A DNA stretch of 64,000 nt from Candidatus Gastranaerophilales bacterium (lineage in GTDB: Bacteria; Cyanobacteriota; Vampirovibrionia; Gastranaerophilales; Gastranaerophilaceae), in the NCBI GenBank assembly GCA_944325005.1, contig CALUYO010000004.1, positions 124,001 through 188,000 of the forward strand. Direction: 5' to 3'. Of this stretch, positions 8,466-60,776 are shown one piece after another; position 1 is the first letter of the stretch; each line of letters starts with the position of its first letter. The position numbers and the translations under genes were made by a program. The notes under the pieces were generated by a model that was given only the letters and a program-made list of their open reading frames with translations, was not told the origin of the DNA and ran no database searches.

Positions 8466-9135
8466 AAAGGTTTTACTTTAGCAGAAGTTCTTGTAACATT
8501 AGGGATAATCGGAGTAGTTTCAGCAATGACTGTACCGACACTGATGCAAAATCATCAGAGAAAAACCTATGTAACGCAGCTTCATAAAGTATATAATGAG
8601 ATTACTCAAGCCGCTTTGCAATATCAGACAGATAGAAATGCGTTGAATCTTCGGGAAGCCGGTATAAATTCGGTTGATAGCGCAAATGCATTTATAAGAA
8701 ATTATTTTAAGATTGTAAATGAGTGTGAAGGATTAAGCGGCTGCTTTGCTGATTCTTATAAAAAGATGAGTGGAGTAGAAGTTTCTCTTGGAGATGCAAA
8801 AAGTTTTGTTTTAGCAAGTGGGGCTTCTGTCAGGCCTAAGTATAATCCGGTAGGTTTATCTTTAATAAGTTTTCTTGTAGATGTAAACGGGAAACAAGGT
8901 CCTAAATATTGCGGGACGTGACGTTTTTATTATGTGTCTTTATAATAATGGTGTACTTGACGATGCTGGTTATACTGTAGATGATGATGGAAAAGTATCT
9001 GAAATTTTTGCGGCTGTTCCATTATCCGAAGAAGAAAGAAATAAGATATTTAATTCTCACTGTAATTCAAATTCTACCGGAATTTCAGGCTGTTTCGGTA
9101 AAATTTTAAATGATAACTGGGAAATGAATTACTAA
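8410..9135 (+). pseudogene. Prepilin-type protein 1, interrupted by two frame breaks
   Basis: Joined across its breaks this is a type IV prepilin-like protein: basic leader, Gly before FTLAEVLVTLGIIG, hydrophobic helix, HQRKTYVTQLHKVYNE, and the C-terminal GCFGKILNDNWEMNY shared by most prepilins here. The first break is the G10 run at 8438-8447. The second is one extra A in the triplet near 8904-8906, judged against the near-identical pilin 2; it shifts frame just before the conserved GRD.F motif. The second break makes this copy look inactive, a silent cassette, or a base-call error. Promoter-like TTATAAT lies just upstream. Confidence 0.75.
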
Positions 9136-12427: not shown

Positions 12428-13097
12428 AGAGGGCTTTACTTTAGCAGAAGTACTTGTAACATTAGGCATAATCGGTGTAGTCTCAGCAATGACTGTTCCG
12501 ACTTTAATGCAAAATCATCAGCGAAAAACTTATGTTACGCAGTTGCATAAAGTATATAATGAGATTACTCAGGCAGCTTTGCAATATCAGACAGATAGAA
12601 ATGCGGTGAATCTTCGAGAAGCCGGTATTAATTCTGAGGCTAGTGCAAATGCATTTATAAGAAATTATTTTAAGGTCGTAAATGAATGTGAAGGATTAAG
12701 CGGCTGCTTTGCAGATTCTTATAAAAAAATGAGTGGTGGTGAAGTTTCTCTTGGAAATACAAGAAGTTTTGTTTTAGCAAGCGGAGCTTCTGTCAGACCT
12801 ATGTATAATGCTGTAGGGTTGGCTTTAGTCAGTTTTCTTGTAGATGTAAACGGGAAACAAGGTCCTAATATTGCAGGGCGTGATCTGTTTATTATGTGTC
12901 TTTATAATAATGGTGTGCTTGACGATGCCAGTTATACTATAGATGATGATGGCAATACATCTGAAATTTTTGACACTGTACCATTATCAGAAGAGGAGAG
13001 AAATAAGATTTTTAATTCTCAGTGCAATTCAAATTCTACCGGCGTAGCCGGCTGTTTTGGAAAAATTCTTAATGATGGATGGGAAATGACGTATTAG
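12373..13097 (+). CDS. Prepilin-type protein 2, out of frame at G10
   Basis: The pilin body is open from the G run to the stop at 13097 and needs a -1 shift (or 11 or 8 Gs) to join the ATG at 12373. Joined, it reads a short basic leader, RGGGRLTAFSEG, then FTLAEVLVTLGIIG with Glu5 of the mature helix. The body carries CEGLSGC near mid-protein, PNIAGRDLF, and the closing GCFGKILNDGWEMTY. It is a near copy of pilin 1 but with an intact body, so it is probably the functional member of the pair. PilD at 22659 would cleave after Gly. It is followed by a strong terminator. Confidence 0.85.
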
Positions 13098-14986: not shown

Positions 14987-15059
14987 TTGAAAGGAGTAAT
15001 TATGAATACATATTTTAAATCTTCATGTCGGGGGGGGGGCGTAATTTAAGCTCTTTCAA
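14987..15059 (+). promoter_or_regulatory. G10 element, copy 3 (pilin 3 leader)
   Basis: SD TTGAAAGGAGT (14987-14997), ATG at 15002, ten Gs at 15030-15039. The G10 frame reads MNTYFKSSCRGGGVI and stops at TAA 15047. AGCTCTTTCAA (15049-15059) is complementary to the SD region: seven exact pairs (TTGAAAG / CTTTCAA), then a bulged G, then AGT / AGCT-side pairs. This is the longest SD pairing of the nine. TTATAAT lies upstream near 14976. Confidence 0.7.
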
Positions 15060-15786
15060 TGGTTTTACTCTAGCTGAAGTTTTGATAACATTAGGTATTA
15101 TTGGAATAGTAGCAGCCTTGACAATGCCTGCATTAATTAATTCTTACCAGAAAATGGTATTGAGACAGCAGTTTAAAAAAGCTTATAATACTATGTTAAA
15201 TGGCTATCGTTTGGCCGAAGCAAATTTAGGTTTTCATCCTATGTGTTATTATGGTGATGATAATATTGGGGCACCTTGTATAAAATATGAAAACGGAAAT
15301 TGTATTGAATATGGAGAGGCTGTTAATCCTACAAATCAATTATCTGACTGTCCGCTATTAAGAGAAGAATTAATGAAAGTATTATCTGTAATAAAGGTTT
15401 GTGAAGGGAATGGTCTTGCTGACGGATGTATTCCTCCATATAAAGGAAATGATACGTTATATAAAGACAATAATGAAAATGCTTCTGAAGAAGATACGAA
15501 TATGGCTACAACTGGTACAGCCGGCTGGAGAGAACAAAATATTCAAAATAAATCGCATATTTGGGTTTTGTCTGACGGTATAACTATAGTATGGTATGGT
15601 AGTTCAACTGCTTTGTTTGCAGTGGATGTTAATGGTATGAAAGGACCTAATAAATGGGGATATGACTTATTTCCATTTACCCTTAAATCAAATTTAGCTA
15701 AAGCATTATGGCTTGAGGCTGGTGCCTCGTTTACAGAAAAAGGCGGAAAGACAACAAAGGAAATGATGCAAAGCATGGGGTTGTAA
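15002..15786 (+). CDS. Prepilin-type protein 3, divergent
   Basis: The body joins the ATG at 15002 only by a -1 shift in the G run. An in-frame ATG at 15025 sits immediately before the run and gives an unbroken 253-residue protein starting MSGGGRN, but has no SD. After SSFNG comes FTLAEVLITLGIIG. The body differs from the main group: an insert with several Cys (CYYGDDNIGAPC, NCIEYGE), and VDVNGMKGPNKWGYDLF in place of PNILGRD. It lacks the closing GCFGKIL and ends QSMGL. It is probably a minor pilin or pseudopilin. It abuts rlmH, convergently. Confidence 0.8.
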
Positions 15787-30461: not shown

Positions 30462-31156
30462 CCATTTGTTACAACAACTTTGGTAAGATTTTTGTGTCGG
30501 GTCAAGCGGCACGCTTAGGGTTTACTTTAGCTGAGGTTCTTGTAACTCTGGGCATAATCGGCGTAGTCTCAGCAATGACCGTTCCGACTTTAATGCAAAA
30601 TCATCAGCGAAAAACCTATGTTACACAGCTGCATAAAGTATATAACGAGCTTAATCAGGTATTACTTCAATATCAAACAGACAGAAATGCAATTAATTTA
30701 TTTGAAGCAGGTCTAAGCAGTCAACAGTCTGTATATGATATGGTTACAAATTATATGAAAGTTATATCTTCATGTAATACTGTGACTGAACCATGTTTTC
30801 CAAGTGCTTCTTATAAACTTATTAGTGGAACAGATGTAAATAAGGGTGATCTTGATACGGCGCAGAAATCATTTGTACTTGCAGACGGAACTTCTATACG
30901 AATTAAATATGGTAATACAGGTAATGTGTTACTTTTTTGTCTTGTTGATACAAATGGCCTAAAGGGCCCGAATATACTCGGCCGTGATGCATTTATTATG
31001 TATGTTTATAAAAATGGATTGATAGATGATGGAGTTTATACCGGAGGCTATAATGCTCCTCTGACTAAGGAACAAAGAGAAGAGTTAAATTGCGAAACTA
31101 CAATTAACGGTTGTTTTGGAAGATTACTTAATGATAATTGGGAAATGAATTATTAG
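30408..31156 (+). CDS. Prepilin-type protein 5, out of frame at G10
   Basis: A -1 shift in the G run (or 11 or 8 Gs) joins the ATG at 30408 to the body, giving a long leader (RLVASS ... GKIFVSGQAARLG) before FTLAEVLVTLGIIG. Without the shift the body can start only at a GTG (30494) that has no SD. The mature part has CNTVTEPCF, then TNGLKGPNILGRDAFIMY, then CETTINGCFGRLLNDNWEMNY. Two Cys pairs suggest disulfides. Its leader resembles that of pilin 8. A strong terminator follows. Confidence 0.85.
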
Positions 31157-35451: not shown

Positions 35452-36099
35452 ATGAAAAAAGCGTTTACACTTGCAGAAGTATTGGTAACTTTGGGAATAA
35501 TCGGCGTAGTGTCGGCAATGACCGTCCCAACTTTGATGCAGAATTACCAGCGTCAGAGTTATGTAACCCAGCTGCATAAGGTCTATAACGAGTTTGCACA
35601 GGCGTTAACCCAATACCAGACAGACAGAAATGCAGTAAATTTAACAGAAGCTGGTTTAAATTCTCAGGCAAATTTAAATTCCTTTATAACAAGCTATTTT
35701 AGAGTTGTCCAAACCTGCTCGAATTCTTTGACACCTTGTTTTTTGGAGCAAACATCTTATAAAGCATTAAACGGAACGGCTTTACCAGCTCATTATACTG
35801 TTACAAATGCTTATGTTTTGGCAAGCGGGGCATCTGTAAGATTTTTATATGCTAAAGAAGGAGAAAAAGTTGGGAATATAATGGTTGATATCAACGGTCA
35901 AAAAGGTCCGAATATTCTTGGCAGGGATTTATTTACTATAGGTGTATATAATAATGGTATAATGGATGAGAATGGCACATCTGCCCCTTTAACAGAAGAT
36001 GCAAGAAATACTTTGTATAACAACGGCTGTTCTACCGGAGCAACTGCCTGGGGATGTTTTGGAAAGATTCTTAATGATAACTGGGAAATGACTTATTAA
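35452..36099 (+). CDS. Prepilin-type protein 6
   Basis: The 215-residue protein starts MKKA directly before FTLAEVLVTLGIIG, so the leader is only four residues with Ala at the cleavage site. The SD is TGGAG, 8 bases before the ATG. The body follows the family: NYQRQSYVTQLHKVYNE, CSNSLTPCF, NGQKGPNILGRDLFTIGVYNNG and the closing CFGKILNDNWEMTY, with an extra CSTGATAWGC loop. It is in one unbroken frame. Closest relative here is pilin 7. It converges with and overlaps the next gene by 4 bases. Confidence 0.93.
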   Translation: MKKAFTLAEVLVTLGIIGVVSAMTVPTLMQNYQRQSYVTQLHKVYNEFAQALTQYQTDRNAVNLTEAGLNSQANLNSFITSYFRVVQTCSNSLTPCFLEQTSYKALNGTALPAHYTVTNAYVLASGASVRFLYAKEGEKVGNIMVDINGQKGPNILGRDLFTIGVYNNGIMDENGTSAPLTEDARNTLYNNGCSTGATAWGCFGKILNDNWEMTY

Positions 36100-39310: not shown

Positions 39311-39349
39311 ATTGATATGTATGTTCACATTAATAACGGAGTTTATAGA

Positions 39350-40012
39350 ATGAAAAAAGCATTTACTTTAGCCGAGGTTCTGGTCACTTTGGGCATAATC
39401 GGCGTAGTCTCAGCAATGACAGTACCGACCTTGATGCAGAATTACCAGCGTCAGAGCTATGTAACCCAGTTACATAAGGTGTATAATGAGTTTTCTCAAG
39501 CCTTAACCCAATACCAGACAGACAGAAATGCCGTAAATTTAACAGAGGCAGGTTTAAATTCCAAAGATGCGGTTGATACTTTTATTAAAAAATATTTTAG
39601 AGTTGTTCAGGAATGTGACTCTATGGATGATTGCTTTGCTGATGAGTATAAAACTCTTCAGGGTTCTAGTGATACTAGTTACAGTCGAGATGTTAAATCC
39701 TTTGTGTTAGCAAGCGGCGCATCAATAAGACCCAGCTATGCTACGGATGGAAGTAATTTTAAATTACTTAATGTAGGAATTGATGTTAACGGGAAGAAAG
39801 GTCCGAATATTTTAGGAAGGGATTTTATTTTTTTCGCTGTTTATAAAAACGCTTTAATAGACGATTATACAAATGATGTAAATGATAATGCTCCGTTGAC
39901 TGAAGAGGCACGTGACAATATGTTTAATTCTGAATGTAATGCAGGAGCTTCTGGCAGTAGCTGGGGCTGCTTCGGTAAAATATTGAATGATAACTGGGAG
40001 ATGACTTATTAA
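39350..40012 (+). CDS. Prepilin-type protein 7
   Basis: The 220-residue protein starts MKKA before FTLAEVLVTLGIIG. I chose the ATG at 39350, 9 bases after CGGAG; an in-frame ATG at 39317 has no SD. The body has NYQRQSYVTQLHKVYNE, CDSMDDCF, NGKKGPNILGRDFIFF and a closing SWGCFGKILNDNWEMTY, with a CNAGASGSSWGC disulfide-like loop. It is in one unbroken frame and most like pilin 6. From 39362 to 39408 it is identical at DNA level to pilin 8. A terminator follows at once. Confidence 0.93.
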   Translation: MKKAFTLAEVLVTLGIIGVVSAMTVPTLMQNYQRQSYVTQLHKVYNEFSQALTQYQTDRNAVNLTEAGLNSKDAVDTFIKKYFRVVQECDSMDDCFADEYKTLQGSSDTSYSRDVKSFVLASGASIRPSYATDGSNFKLLNVGIDVNGKKGPNILGRDFIFFAVYKNALIDDYTNDVNDNAPLTEEARDNMFNSECNAGASGSSWGCFGKILNDNWEMTY

Positions 40013-40378: not shown

Positions 40379-40444
40379 GAAAGGAGAAGTAGTAATGATT
40401 AAATTTTTAAGTTGCCGGGGGGGGGGCGCTTAGTAGCTTCTTTC
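40379..40444 (+). promoter_or_regulatory. G10 element, copy 8 (pilin 8 leader)
   Basis: SD GAAAGGAG (40379-40386), ATG 40395, ten Gs at 40417-40426. The G10 frame reads MIKFLSCRGGGA and stops at TAG 40431. CTTCTTTC (40437-40444) can pair with the whole SD over eight bases with one G-U. The distance from ATG to the run (22 bases) is the shortest of the plus-strand copies, yet the frame relation to the body is the same. Confidence 0.7.
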
Positions 40445-41179
40445 ATTCGTTTTAGCAACTTCGGTAAGACCTTTGTATCGGGTCAAACGGTACGCTTTGG
40501 GTTTACTTTAGCCGAGGTTCTGGTCACTTTGGGCATAATCGGCGTAGTTTCGGCTATGACTGTTCCTACATTGATGCAAAATCATCAGAGAAAAACTTAT
40601 GTTGTCCAATTACATAAAGTCTATAATGAACTTCAGCAGGCTTTTGTTCAATATATGGCAGATAGAAATGCCTTAAATCTTCGAGAGGCCGGCATAACAG
40701 ATCAGGATACAATGAATAATTTCGTAACAACTTATTTTAAAATTGTAAGCAGGTGCTCGGATCCAAATGATGTAAAACCTTGTTTTGATGACCCGAACAA
40801 TTACAAAAAGATTTCTGGAAATGTTGCAAATGGTTTTACTAATTGTCAGAATTCTACGGACGGTTGTACTTTTACTCTTGCAAGCGGAGCAACAATAAGA
40901 CCTTGGCTTGCAGGTTCTGATGAGTTAGCTTTTATAGTGGCTGTAGTTGATGTAAATGGACCTAAAGGTCCTAATGTATTTGGCAGGGATTTTTTTGATA
41001 TGTGTATTGATGTAAATGGAAATATTGACTCATGTCTGCCTAATGGTACGGTTCCATCCTTTCCGCTTACGGAGGATAAAAGAGATGAGCTTTTTAATTC
41101 CGGATGCCTGGGAAATAGTGCATCTATATATGGTTGCTTCGGAAAAATATTAAATGATAACTGGCAAATGAATTATTAA
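40395..41179 (+). CDS. Prepilin-type protein 8, out of frame at G10
   Basis: A -1 shift (or 11 or 8 Gs) joins the ATG at 40395 to the body. Otherwise the only in-frame start upstream is a TTG at 40412 without an SD. The leader RLVASFIRFSNFGKTFVSG matches pilin 5; the helix FTLAEVLVTLGIIG follows RFG. The mature part has two extra Cys regions (CSDPNDVKPCF, NCQNSTDGC), then NGPKGPNVFGRDFFDMC and CFGKILNDNWQMNY. It is a mosaic: leader like pilin 5, helix DNA identical to pilin 7, next segment like pilin 1. A terminator follows. Confidence 0.85.
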
Positions 41180-58064: not shown

Positions 58065-58767
58065 ATACGCTTTTACGTTGGCAGAGGTTTTAATTACTCT
58101 TGGAATTATCGGAGTGGTTGCTGCTATGACTATGCCTTCATTGATTTCCAAGCATAGAGAAAGGGTCTTTGTAGAGCAATTAAAACAGAGTTATTCTATT
58201 TTTTCACAGGCATATTTGATGGCTACAACAGAAAATGGTCCGGCTGATTTTTGGGACTTGGGTGAAAAAGCGACTATGGAAGGCGCTGAAAAAGTTTTTG
58301 ATATATTTGAGCCATATTTAAGTAAAGTCCAATCCTGTAGAGAAGAATCCGGATGTTTTGCTGAAAGTTATAAAACATTTAGCGGTGTTGATTATGGCTA
58401 TGCCCCTTATGCCCATACTATGTACACAAGAGGTATATTAGCCAACGGAGTATCATTTGCTTTTTCAAGTGGCGGAAGTGGCTGCCAAAACAGTAGCGGT
58501 CCATTGTATCCGAAAATCTGTGCTGTTTTATATGTTGATTTAAATAGTTATAAATACCCAAATAAGGCAGGTGTTGATTATTTTGGATTTTATATAACTC
58601 CAAATGCAATTTTACCTATCGGAATGAAAGGATATGATGGAGGGGAAAATGGCTATACGTGTCAGTATAAGGGAACAGGCAGCGGCAATGGTACAGGATG
58701 TACTGCCTGGGTATTAAGCAATCAAAATATGGATTATTTGCGTCGTGACATTTCCTCTGATTGGTAA
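58010..58767 (+). CDS. Prepilin-type protein 9, out of frame at G10, divergent
   Basis: A -1 shift gives the leader MKNLFGFIKSGGGANLSFSYA and then FTLAEVLITLGIIG. Without it the body has only a TTG (58078) inside the cleavage motif. The mature part differs from the main group: KHRERVFVEQLKQSYSIFSQAY, CREESGCF, LNSYKYPNKAGVDYFGFY, and a Cys/Gly-rich end (CQYKGTGSGNGTGC) without CFGKIL. It is probably a minor pilin or pseudopilin, closer to pilin 3 and 4 in style. It ends at 58767, two bases before the convergent zinc-ribbon gene. Confidence 0.82.
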
Positions 58768-58769
58768 GG

Positions 58770-59075
58770 TTATTGGGGCAGATGCTTTTGCCAGTCGCCT
58801 TCCAGGCTCTGGATAAACCGGTGTGCGTCAATTACGTCATCATAATTTATAGGTTCGGGACCTTCCTGAACTTCTAATGGTTCATAATTTTTTATATCAA
58901 TATCTGTAAATCCGACAAAGGCAATCCCAAAATTTTTCCCGCAGTGTTTACATTCCAAACCTATGACAGTAAGTCCTTCTTCTTCACGTTTGACGGTCAC
59001 AGAGTCCTCATCAAAGCTGTTTTTACATTGTGAACAGCATAAGTTATAAAATAATTTTTCTATTTTCTTTTTCAT
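58770..59075 (-). CDS. Small zinc-ribbon-like protein
   Basis: The 101-residue protein has two CxxC pairs, CCSQCK near residue 14 and CKHCGK near 43, fitting a zinc ribbon, and an acidic C-terminal half. It is probably cytoplasmic. No family recognised. The ATG follows GAGGACTTTATG-type purines (SD GAGGAC). Confidence 0.6.
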   Translation of the reverse strand: MKKKIEKLFYNLCCSQCKNSFDEDSVTVKREEEGLTVIGLECKHCGKNFGIAFVGFTDIDIKNYEPLEVQEGPEPINYDDVIDAHRFIQSLEGDWQKHLPQ

Positions 59076-59140
59076 AAAGTCCTCACTAATATTATATTTA
59101 AAATTTTATTAAAAAATGTTAATTTTTCTCAGAGCATGGG

Positions 59141-59146
59141 TATAAT
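59141..59146 (+). promoter_or_regulatory. -10 box of the 31-residue protein gene
   Basis: TATAAT with GGG before it, about 60 bases upstream of the ATG. A TTAATT at about 59119 is a weak -35. A 5' UTR of about 55 bases results. The rest of 59076-59209 shows no other structure. Confidence 0.5.
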
Positions 59147-59209
59147 ATAAATAGCGGATTATATATGTCGTTTCGGTTCGCTAAAGCTTAACAGATAGGA
59201 GTGTTTATC

Positions 59210-59305
59210 ATGGAAGCTATTAACTTAATTCTATTCGGTTTCATCGTTTATACTGCGTTAATCGTAGTTCCGAGCATCTGGGAAGAATTAACTACTGAAG
59301 GATAA
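59210..59305 (+). CDS. 31-residue single-helix membrane protein
   Basis: An ATG at 59210, preceded by TAGGAGTGTTTATC, opens 31 codons. The product is one hydrophobic helix (NLILFGFIVYTALIVVPSIW) with a short acidic C-terminus (EELTTEG). Codons are C-ending where the genome usually has T (TTC, ATC), a sign of strong expression. Size and shape recall single-helix subunits of photosystems, cytochrome complexes or bd oxidase, but I recognise no identity. It stands alone in a 348-base gap between convergent-minus genes. Bases 59306-59423 hold nothing I can name. Confidence 0.6.
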   Translation: MEAINLILFGFIVYTALIVVPSIWEELTTEG

Positions 59306-59423
59306 GATCCTTTAAAATTTCAGACGAAGATTAATGTTGAGAGTTCCATTTTCTTCAAAATTTCGCCAAGTGTGTAAGTATTTGTTTTAAAAAGTGTAAG
59401 TTGTACGTTATTTGTTTAACGCA

Positions 59424-60776
59424 TTATTTTGTTGCGGTCAAAATTTCATCTAAACATTTACGTGCAATATCGGTGGCAAGGTCCATATCTTTTCTTTCCA
59501 TAATCAGCGGTGGATTAAAATACAGGACATCACCGAGTGGTCTTAAAATAACTCCCTCCATCAAAGCCTTTTTGTATATTTGGTAACCTGTTCTCAAGTT
59601 ACTGTCAAAAGGCTTTTTACTTTGCTTATCATGCACTAGTTCTATTGCATTAATTAAGCCTATATGGCGAACTTCTCCAACATTGGGATGTGAGAGAAAT
59701 TTTTCTTTTATTATGTTGTTAAAATAAACTGCATTTTCCTGCGCTTTTTTTAAAACACTGCCATCCTCTAGAATATCTAATACTGCGTTTGCAGCAGAAC
59801 ATGCAAGAGGATTTCCGCTATAGGTGTGACTGTGCATAAATGCTTTTCCTGTATTATAATCTGCGTAAAATGCATCGTAAATTTTTTTAGTAGTAACAAA
59901 AAGTGCCATTGGCATGTAGCCGCCTGTCAGACCTTTTGAAAGGCACATAATATCAGGAGAAACTCCGGCATGATTAAAGGCAAACATTTTACCGGTTCTT
60001 CCAAAGCCTGTTGCAATTTCGTCGGCAATTAAGTGTACATTGTACTCATTACATAATTCGCGAAGTCTTTTTAAATAAAGTGCAGGATATATTTTCATTC
60101 CTGCAGAACCCTGTAAAAGCGGCTCCACAAGTATTGCAGAAGTTTCATGACCGTATTGCGCAAATGTTTTTTCTGCATGTTCAAAACATTCGCAGTTACA
60201 TGTTTCACGTTTTTTTCCGTACGGGCATCTGTAACAATCAGGACCTTGTATTTTCTTTATATCCATTAAAATAGGTTTATAAAGTTTTGTATAAAGGTCG
60301 CAGTCACCGGCAGAAAGCGCTCCTATAGTTTCTCCATGATAGGCATCTGTTAATGCCATGAATTTTGTTTTTTGCGGGTTACCTGTCTGCCGGTGATATT
60401 GAAAACTTACTTTCATTGAAGCCTCAATTGCTGATGACCCGTTATCTGTAAAATTAAATTTACACAAACCTTCAGGCATTATTTTAGAAAGCCTTTCACA
60501 GAGCCTTATAGCCTGTGTATGTGTAAAATTTGCAAATATAACATGTTCAAGTTCATCTATCTGCTTTTTTACAGCCTGATTAATTATCGGATTGCAGTGT
60601 CCGAGAAGATTACACCACCAAGAACTTATTACATCTATATATCTTTTTCCTTCTGTATCATAAAGATAAATTCCCTCGCCGCGTTTAATTACTATAGGTT
60701 TTAGCTCCTCGTAATCTTTCATCTGAGAACAGGGATGCCATATATATTTAATATCTTTTTCAGCCCAGTTTTCCAT
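59424..60776 (-). CDS. bioA: Adenosylmethionine-8-amino-7-oxononanoate aminotransferase
   Basis: The 450-residue PLP enzyme is BioA. It has IWHPCSQMKDYEEL at the start, GSSAIEASMKVSFQYH, DAYHGETIGALSAG, the PLP aspartate in LIADEIATGFGRTG near 254 and the lysine in CLSKGLTGGYMPM near 281. BioA uses SAM as amino donor to make diaminopelargonic acid. A Cys-rich loop (GPDCYRCPYGKKRETCNCEC) near 180-200 is a lineage-type insert. It starts 2 bases after bioD and forms a two-gene biotin operon. Confidence 0.96.
   Translation of the reverse strand: MENWAEKDIKYIWHPCSQMKDYEELKPIVIKRGEGIYLYDTEGKRYIDVISSWWCNLLGHCNPIINQAVKKQIDELEHVIFANFTHTQAIRLCERLSKIMPEGLCKFNFTDNGSSAIEASMKVSFQYHRQTGNPQKTKFMALTDAYHGETIGALSAGDCDLYTKLYKPILMDIKKIQGPDCYRCPYGKKRETCNCECFEHAEKTFAQYGHETSAILVEPLLQGSAGMKIYPALYLKRLRELCNEYNVHLIADEIATGFGRTGKMFAFNHAGVSPDIMCLSKGLTGGYMPMALFVTTKKIYDAFYADYNTGKAFMHSHTYSGNPLACSAANAVLDILEDGSVLKKAQENAVYFNNIIKEKFLSHPNVGEVRHIGLINAIELVHDKQSKKPFDSNLRTGYQIYKKALMEGVILRPLGDVLYFNPPLIMERKDMDLATDIARKCLDEILTATK

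Follow-up and report, generated by a model that had tools for sequence, protein, structure and literature searches.

CydX, KdpF and AcrZ are proteins of about 30-50 amino acids with one helix that act as stoichiometric partners of large membrane complexes, and single-helix photosynthetic subunits of comparable length are also found in Cyanobacteria, among them PsbN, PsbM and PetN. Small hydrophobic helices encoded by structured mRNAs are known from TisB, DinQ and TimP as well, and long-range folded mRNAs occur among type I toxin mRNAs. In the window analysed here, a stretch of 64,000 nucleotides, an open reading frame on the forward strand at 59210-59305 runs from an ATG at 59210 to a TAA at 59303-59305 and encodes a 31-residue protein with a single transmembrane helix, MEAINLILFGFIVYTALIVVPSIWEELTTEG. 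The first-pass annotation had taken this frame for a real, well-expressed small membrane protein whose shape resembles single-helix subunits of photosynthetic or respiratory complexes. The frame is a real gene under purifying selection and its product forms a new lineage-restricted family of an already known kind of protein; the likeness to photosynthetic and respiratory subunits is one of shape only.

The 31-residue protein is similar to CydX, KdpF and AcrZ in size and in having one helix, and it carries the trait of a small accessory subunit, a single transmembrane helix of which one face is conserved, but no sequence match connects it to them. No Pfam, NCBIfam or PDB family was matched, the best hits being at chance level (E ~0.002 or worse). 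No CydX profile was present among the Pfam and NCBIfam matches up to E 10, no KdpF model was present among the matches from these two databases, and no kdpA lies among the neighbours in the window. Cytochrome bd subunit I (PF01654) was found in 0 of 35 genomes of the window's own family, compared to 10 of 14 positive control genomes, and the complex I 49-kDa subunit (PF00346) was not found in the window's own genome (0 of 1). Length and one helix are likewise all that the protein has in common with PsbN, PsbM and PetN, from which it differs in giving no profile match and in that, in the phylum sample beyond the window's own family (f1) and a sister family (f7), nothing but a single chance-level match was found. 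The account of published Melainabacteria genomes (PMC3787301) describes them as being without photosystems, cytochromes or terminal oxidases, with an F-type ATP synthase in relatives; some of those genomes are credited with a complex I dehydrogenase of 11 subunits, which was not seen in the window's genome. Together with the searches above, these reports speak against the kinship with photosynthetic or respiratory subunits that had been suggested. A literature search on small proteins of Melainabacteria and Gastranaerophilales, and on a 12-residue stretch of the protein, returned no report of it, and it may sit uncharacterised in a small-protein catalogue.

Conservation and distribution of the gene

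A check for conservation in close relatives, proposed when the frame was first described, found the gene in 31 of 33 genomes of the same genus, 29 of them with a protein identical letter for letter; in one of the two misses (G003), the contig stops just upstream. The identical protein is encoded at 33 loci in five genera (the 29 same-genus loci and four loci from four other genera) by 32 distinct DNA sequences, with a mean difference of 10.3 of 93 bases, all synonymous by construction. At the same loci, the neighbouring zinc-ribbon protein has a mean identity of 77.4% (31 sequences) and the neighbouring aminotransferase of 84.4% (22 sequences), indicating that the 31-residue protein is under very strong constraint. 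A non-coding RNA mimicking an open reading frame was rejected, since the bases vary to this extent among the 33 loci and almost every same-genus copy encodes one and the same protein.

A search profile built from divergent members of the family was positive in 165 of the 170 f1 genomes, nearly always with one match each, and in both sampled genomes of f7, which belongs to the same order. Among 214 other genomes, a phylum sample outside f1 and f7 counted together whatever their photosynthetic capacity, there was one match only, at chance level (E = 0.0195). None was seen in families f2, f3, f4 and f6, as covered by a single-sequence search, the zinc-ribbon neighbourhoods and the profile in one f6 genome. 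The five f1 genomes with no profile match are G028, G168, G176, G192 and G297, and unless missing contigs explain these absences, the gene may be dispensable. In the first four, which are 98-99% complete, neither the small gene nor the zinc-ribbon gene was found. No bioA orthologue was found in these four either, G168 having only a 32%-identical aminotransferase, and in G028, G168 and G192 other genes come after the transporter neighbour.

A DNA-pattern scan of GTDB contigs gave at least 114 stretches. The named matches listed are mostly Candidatus Gastranaerophilales or Melainabacteria MAGs, which agrees with the earlier placement of the host as a non-photosynthetic relative of Cyanobacteria, and a few bear other names as submitted (Clostridiaceae, Muribaculaceae, Heliobacteriaceae). 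A mobile or phage gene was rejected: viral contigs and plasmids gave no match, and phages one chance match (E = 9).

Protein anatomy and codon usage

AlphaFold predicted a single helix over residues 2-30 with a mean pLDDT of 94, in line with the hydrophobic helix first read from the sequence; this prediction, the identical protein at 33 loci and the near-universal presence in f1 bear out the description as a real small membrane protein. When 24 family members were registered on Y14 and P21, these two residues were constant in 24 of 24 rows, and L6, F9, G10 and E/D25 rarely changed. The conservation moment at 100 degrees was 0.416 (residues 4-23), a value reached in 20 of 20,000 column shuffles, and this alpha-helical period indicates that one face, L6-G10-Y14-P21-E25, is held fixed. 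K or R occurs before the helix in 0 of 24 rows and after P21 in 15 of 24. By the positive-inside rule the K/R-bearing end stays cytoplasmic, so the restriction of these residues to positions after the helix places the C-terminus in the cytoplasm, and the topology is probably N-out/C-in. The window's own protein contains no K/R and no His; 14 of the 24 rows carry a His among their final three positions. Longer forms of 44-51 residues in all, with an extra C-terminal tail, are present at three loci (L047, L048, L054), the first two with no zinc-ribbon gene alongside.

Seven of the 10 NNY codons in the gene end in C, compared to 1221 of 5064 (0.24) in 43 window genes and 264 of 533 (0.50) in 17 ribosomal-protein genes, and when the same protein was resampled with window codons, seven or more C-ending codons arose at P = 0.0001. 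The gene therefore does differ from its neighbours in C-ending codons, as had been noted, and resembles ribosomal-protein genes. Its CAI of 0.719 lies near the ribosomal mean (0.729) and above the window median and maximum (0.566 and 0.681), a modest result by itself (P = 0.049) that was reached by 47 of 497 31-codon stretches of window genes. The codon evidence is strong for the C-ending bias and weaker for CAI alone. Codons and leader are both of the type ascribed to a well-expressed gene in the first-pass annotation, and from these sequence features the gene is probably highly expressed.

The locus and its transcript

The gene stands alone, as originally described, because the flanking genes on both sides lie on the opposite strand: the nearest upstream gene is divergent and starts at 59075, and the nearest downstream gene is convergent and ends at 59424. 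The latter, on the reverse strand, encodes a class-III aminotransferase (Pfam Aminotran_3), which we take to be bioA. Within the window, the zinc-ribbon protein and this aminotransferase are joined as neighbours by a nucleoside transporter and a prepilin-like gene. Judged by eye, prepilin-like genes whose N-termini are of the FTLAEVLITLGIIGVVAAMTMP type occur separately at many places in the 64 kb, on the forward strand at 8526-8921, 12489-13097, 15025-15786, 30494-31156, 35452-36099, 39317-40012, 40412-41179 and 58078-58767; some of these frames as listed begin within the N-terminal motif. A leader peptide or attenuator was rejected, since no co-oriented gene follows in the window or at most same-genus loci.

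The divergent gene at 58770-59075 (reverse strand) encodes a conserved neighbour, a 101-residue Cys4 zinc-ribbon protein in which Cys14, 17, 42 and 45 are invariant in 35 rows. It is divergent from the small gene at 51 of 57 loci, second family included (50 by pattern and L034 by inspection, with eight chance loci, L058-L065, excluded); the six unpaired loci are either at contig ends (L019, L021) or have no zinc-ribbon gene adjacent (L033, L044, L047, L048). Of 192 genomes in the order, 148 gave a match to the zinc-ribbon profile, including some where the small gene was unseen, and the profile also matched in certain other families within the phylum. Archaeal Trm112 has weak similarity to 10 of 16 neighbour sequences (best E 3e-05), but the window's own zinc-ribbon protein scores 12.9 bits against a cut-off of 77, and the neighbour differs from Trm112 in an extra conserved C-terminal motif, DDVIDAHxFI. 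No PDB fold was matched by the neighbour at E<=0.001. In some lineages, rRNA methyltransferase-like genes, presumably rsmH and rsmG, adjoin the zinc-ribbon gene, and it is possible that the zinc-ribbon protein is a methyltransferase partner.

The Shine-Dalgarno sequence AGGAG at 59197-59201 (forward strand) ends 8 nt before the ATG and is invariant in 22 aligned same-genus leaders, confirming the strong site first reported. Further upstream, a -10 region, TGGG-TATAAT at 59137-59146 (forward strand), is kept in relatives and transcription is expected to start at ~59153. This supports the claim that the gene has its own promoter, though the -35 is weak and the site is absent from the list of a consensus promoter scanner. 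Directly after the predicted start, same-genus leaders contain a 5'UTR hairpin, in the window at 59152-59183 (forward strand), with arms at 59152-59160 and 59175-59183 and the loop GUCGUU at 59167-59172. In 28 leaders, matched arms form 8.32 pairs on average, compared to a mean of 6.62 and a maximum of 7.21 in 300 trials when arms were dealt among species; the arms vary between species yet match each other, and the loop is nearly constant. The covariation is strong evidence, although the relatedness of the species keeps the leaders from being independent of one another.

Alignment of 34 downstream regions revealed a conserved 3'UTR stretch, AGACGA...GAGAGTTCC, at 59322-59347 (forward strand), in which AGACGA...GAGTTCC, about 20 nt past the stop, is kept across genera; RNAalifold gave no consensus structure in this stretch. 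It is part of a long conserved 3'UTR (59306-59423) containing AGACGA, GAGTTCC, AGTGT and a weak hairpin, ACGTTA/TAACG, elements that are kept across genera even with a different downstream gene. The hairpin motif is present at 37 of 53 loci, and its arms pair at 5.59 compared to a dealt mean of 5.04 and a maximum of 5.41, a weak signal.

A proposed accessory subunit and its alternatives

A one-helix protein that is abundant, near-invariant and frozen on one face has the look of a subunit accessory to some large membrane complex, and with moderate confidence we regard the 31-residue protein as strongly expressed and single-pass, serving a larger and abundant membrane protein of this bacterial family as accessory subunit or regulator. 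The face L6-G10-Y14-(L17)-P21-E25 would pack against the transmembrane helices of the partner and the acidic C-terminal end would cap its cytoplasmic side, with the N-terminus presumably outside and the C-terminus in the cytoplasm. Since cytochrome bd and the complex I 49-kDa subunit were not found in the genomes searched, and relatives are described as having an F-type ATP synthase but no photosystems or electron-transport components, the partner should be sought elsewhere, and we infer ATP synthase, translocation, transport or division machines as candidates. The accessory-subunit reading is helped by the missing co-oriented downstream gene, which argues against a leader peptide in the window. 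Against it, none of the neighbours (zinc-ribbon, bioA-like and rsmH-like) is a membrane complex, and some genomes keep the small gene although no zinc-ribbon gene was found in them (e.g., G055, G052, G057). Self-assembly would account for a conserved helix face equally well. Tentatively, a lineage-specific micro-gene may have arisen within the divergent promoter region of an older zinc-ribbon gene, or been transferred there, in the common ancestor of the two families, and may now encode, on a structured mRNA of its own, a near-universal and near-frozen subunit of a core membrane machine restricted to these gut bacteria.

It is doubtful that the protein serves as a membrane anchor or partner of the divergent zinc-ribbon protein, perhaps in metal or redox sensing. 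The divergent pairing in both families, the finding of neither gene in the same four f1 genomes and the frequent terminal His are consistent with such a role. However, the small gene is present with no zinc-ribbon gene found in genera g21, g24, g26, g59 and g62, the zinc-ribbon gene is kept with no small gene seen beside it in f2, f3, f4 and f6, G040 and G142 (g9) carry the two on separate contigs, and the window's protein has no His. As each gene is also found without the other, the linkage, though old, is not obligatory.

A type I toxin-like membrane peptide in the style of TisB, DinQ or TimP, with a structured mRNA holding translation low, is unlikely. Such a peptide would share with the 31-residue protein its size of about 30 residues, its single hydrophobic helix and its monocistronic, structured mRNA with a leader hairpin, and the leader loop UCGUUU could pair with the conserved 3'UTR AGACGA, a complementarity spotted by eye between two sides that hardly vary. 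Unlike these toxins, the gene is near-universal in its family (165/170), identical in five genera and adapted to ribosomal-type codons, and its product in the window has no K/R. AGACG is also kept in other genera that have no leader hairpin, which leaves the loop-3'UTR pairing speculative.

A division or envelope protein tied to the dcw cluster is quite improbable: an rsmH-like gene is the next co-oriented gene at four loci of four genera (L038, L039, L041, L043), but it was found in 13 of 14 searched genomes and lies elsewhere in all 13, and rsmH linkage as the general setting was rejected. It is very hard to credit that the protein is a homologue, or a relic, of a subunit from a photosystem, cytochrome b6f, NDH-1 or an oxidase. 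Length and a single helix are the only points in favour, and against it stand the family and PDB searches without a match, the lone chance-level match in the phylum sample outside f1 and f7, and host complexes not found here or reported missing (PMC3787301).

Because of its small size, this family-wide gene is easily overlooked by annotation. The held face (L6, G10, Y14, P21, E25) makes a partner search and point-mutation tests direct, and the very strong constraint on the accessory-subunit candidate flags a contact that matters in the membrane biology of the mostly uncultured gut Melainabacteria.
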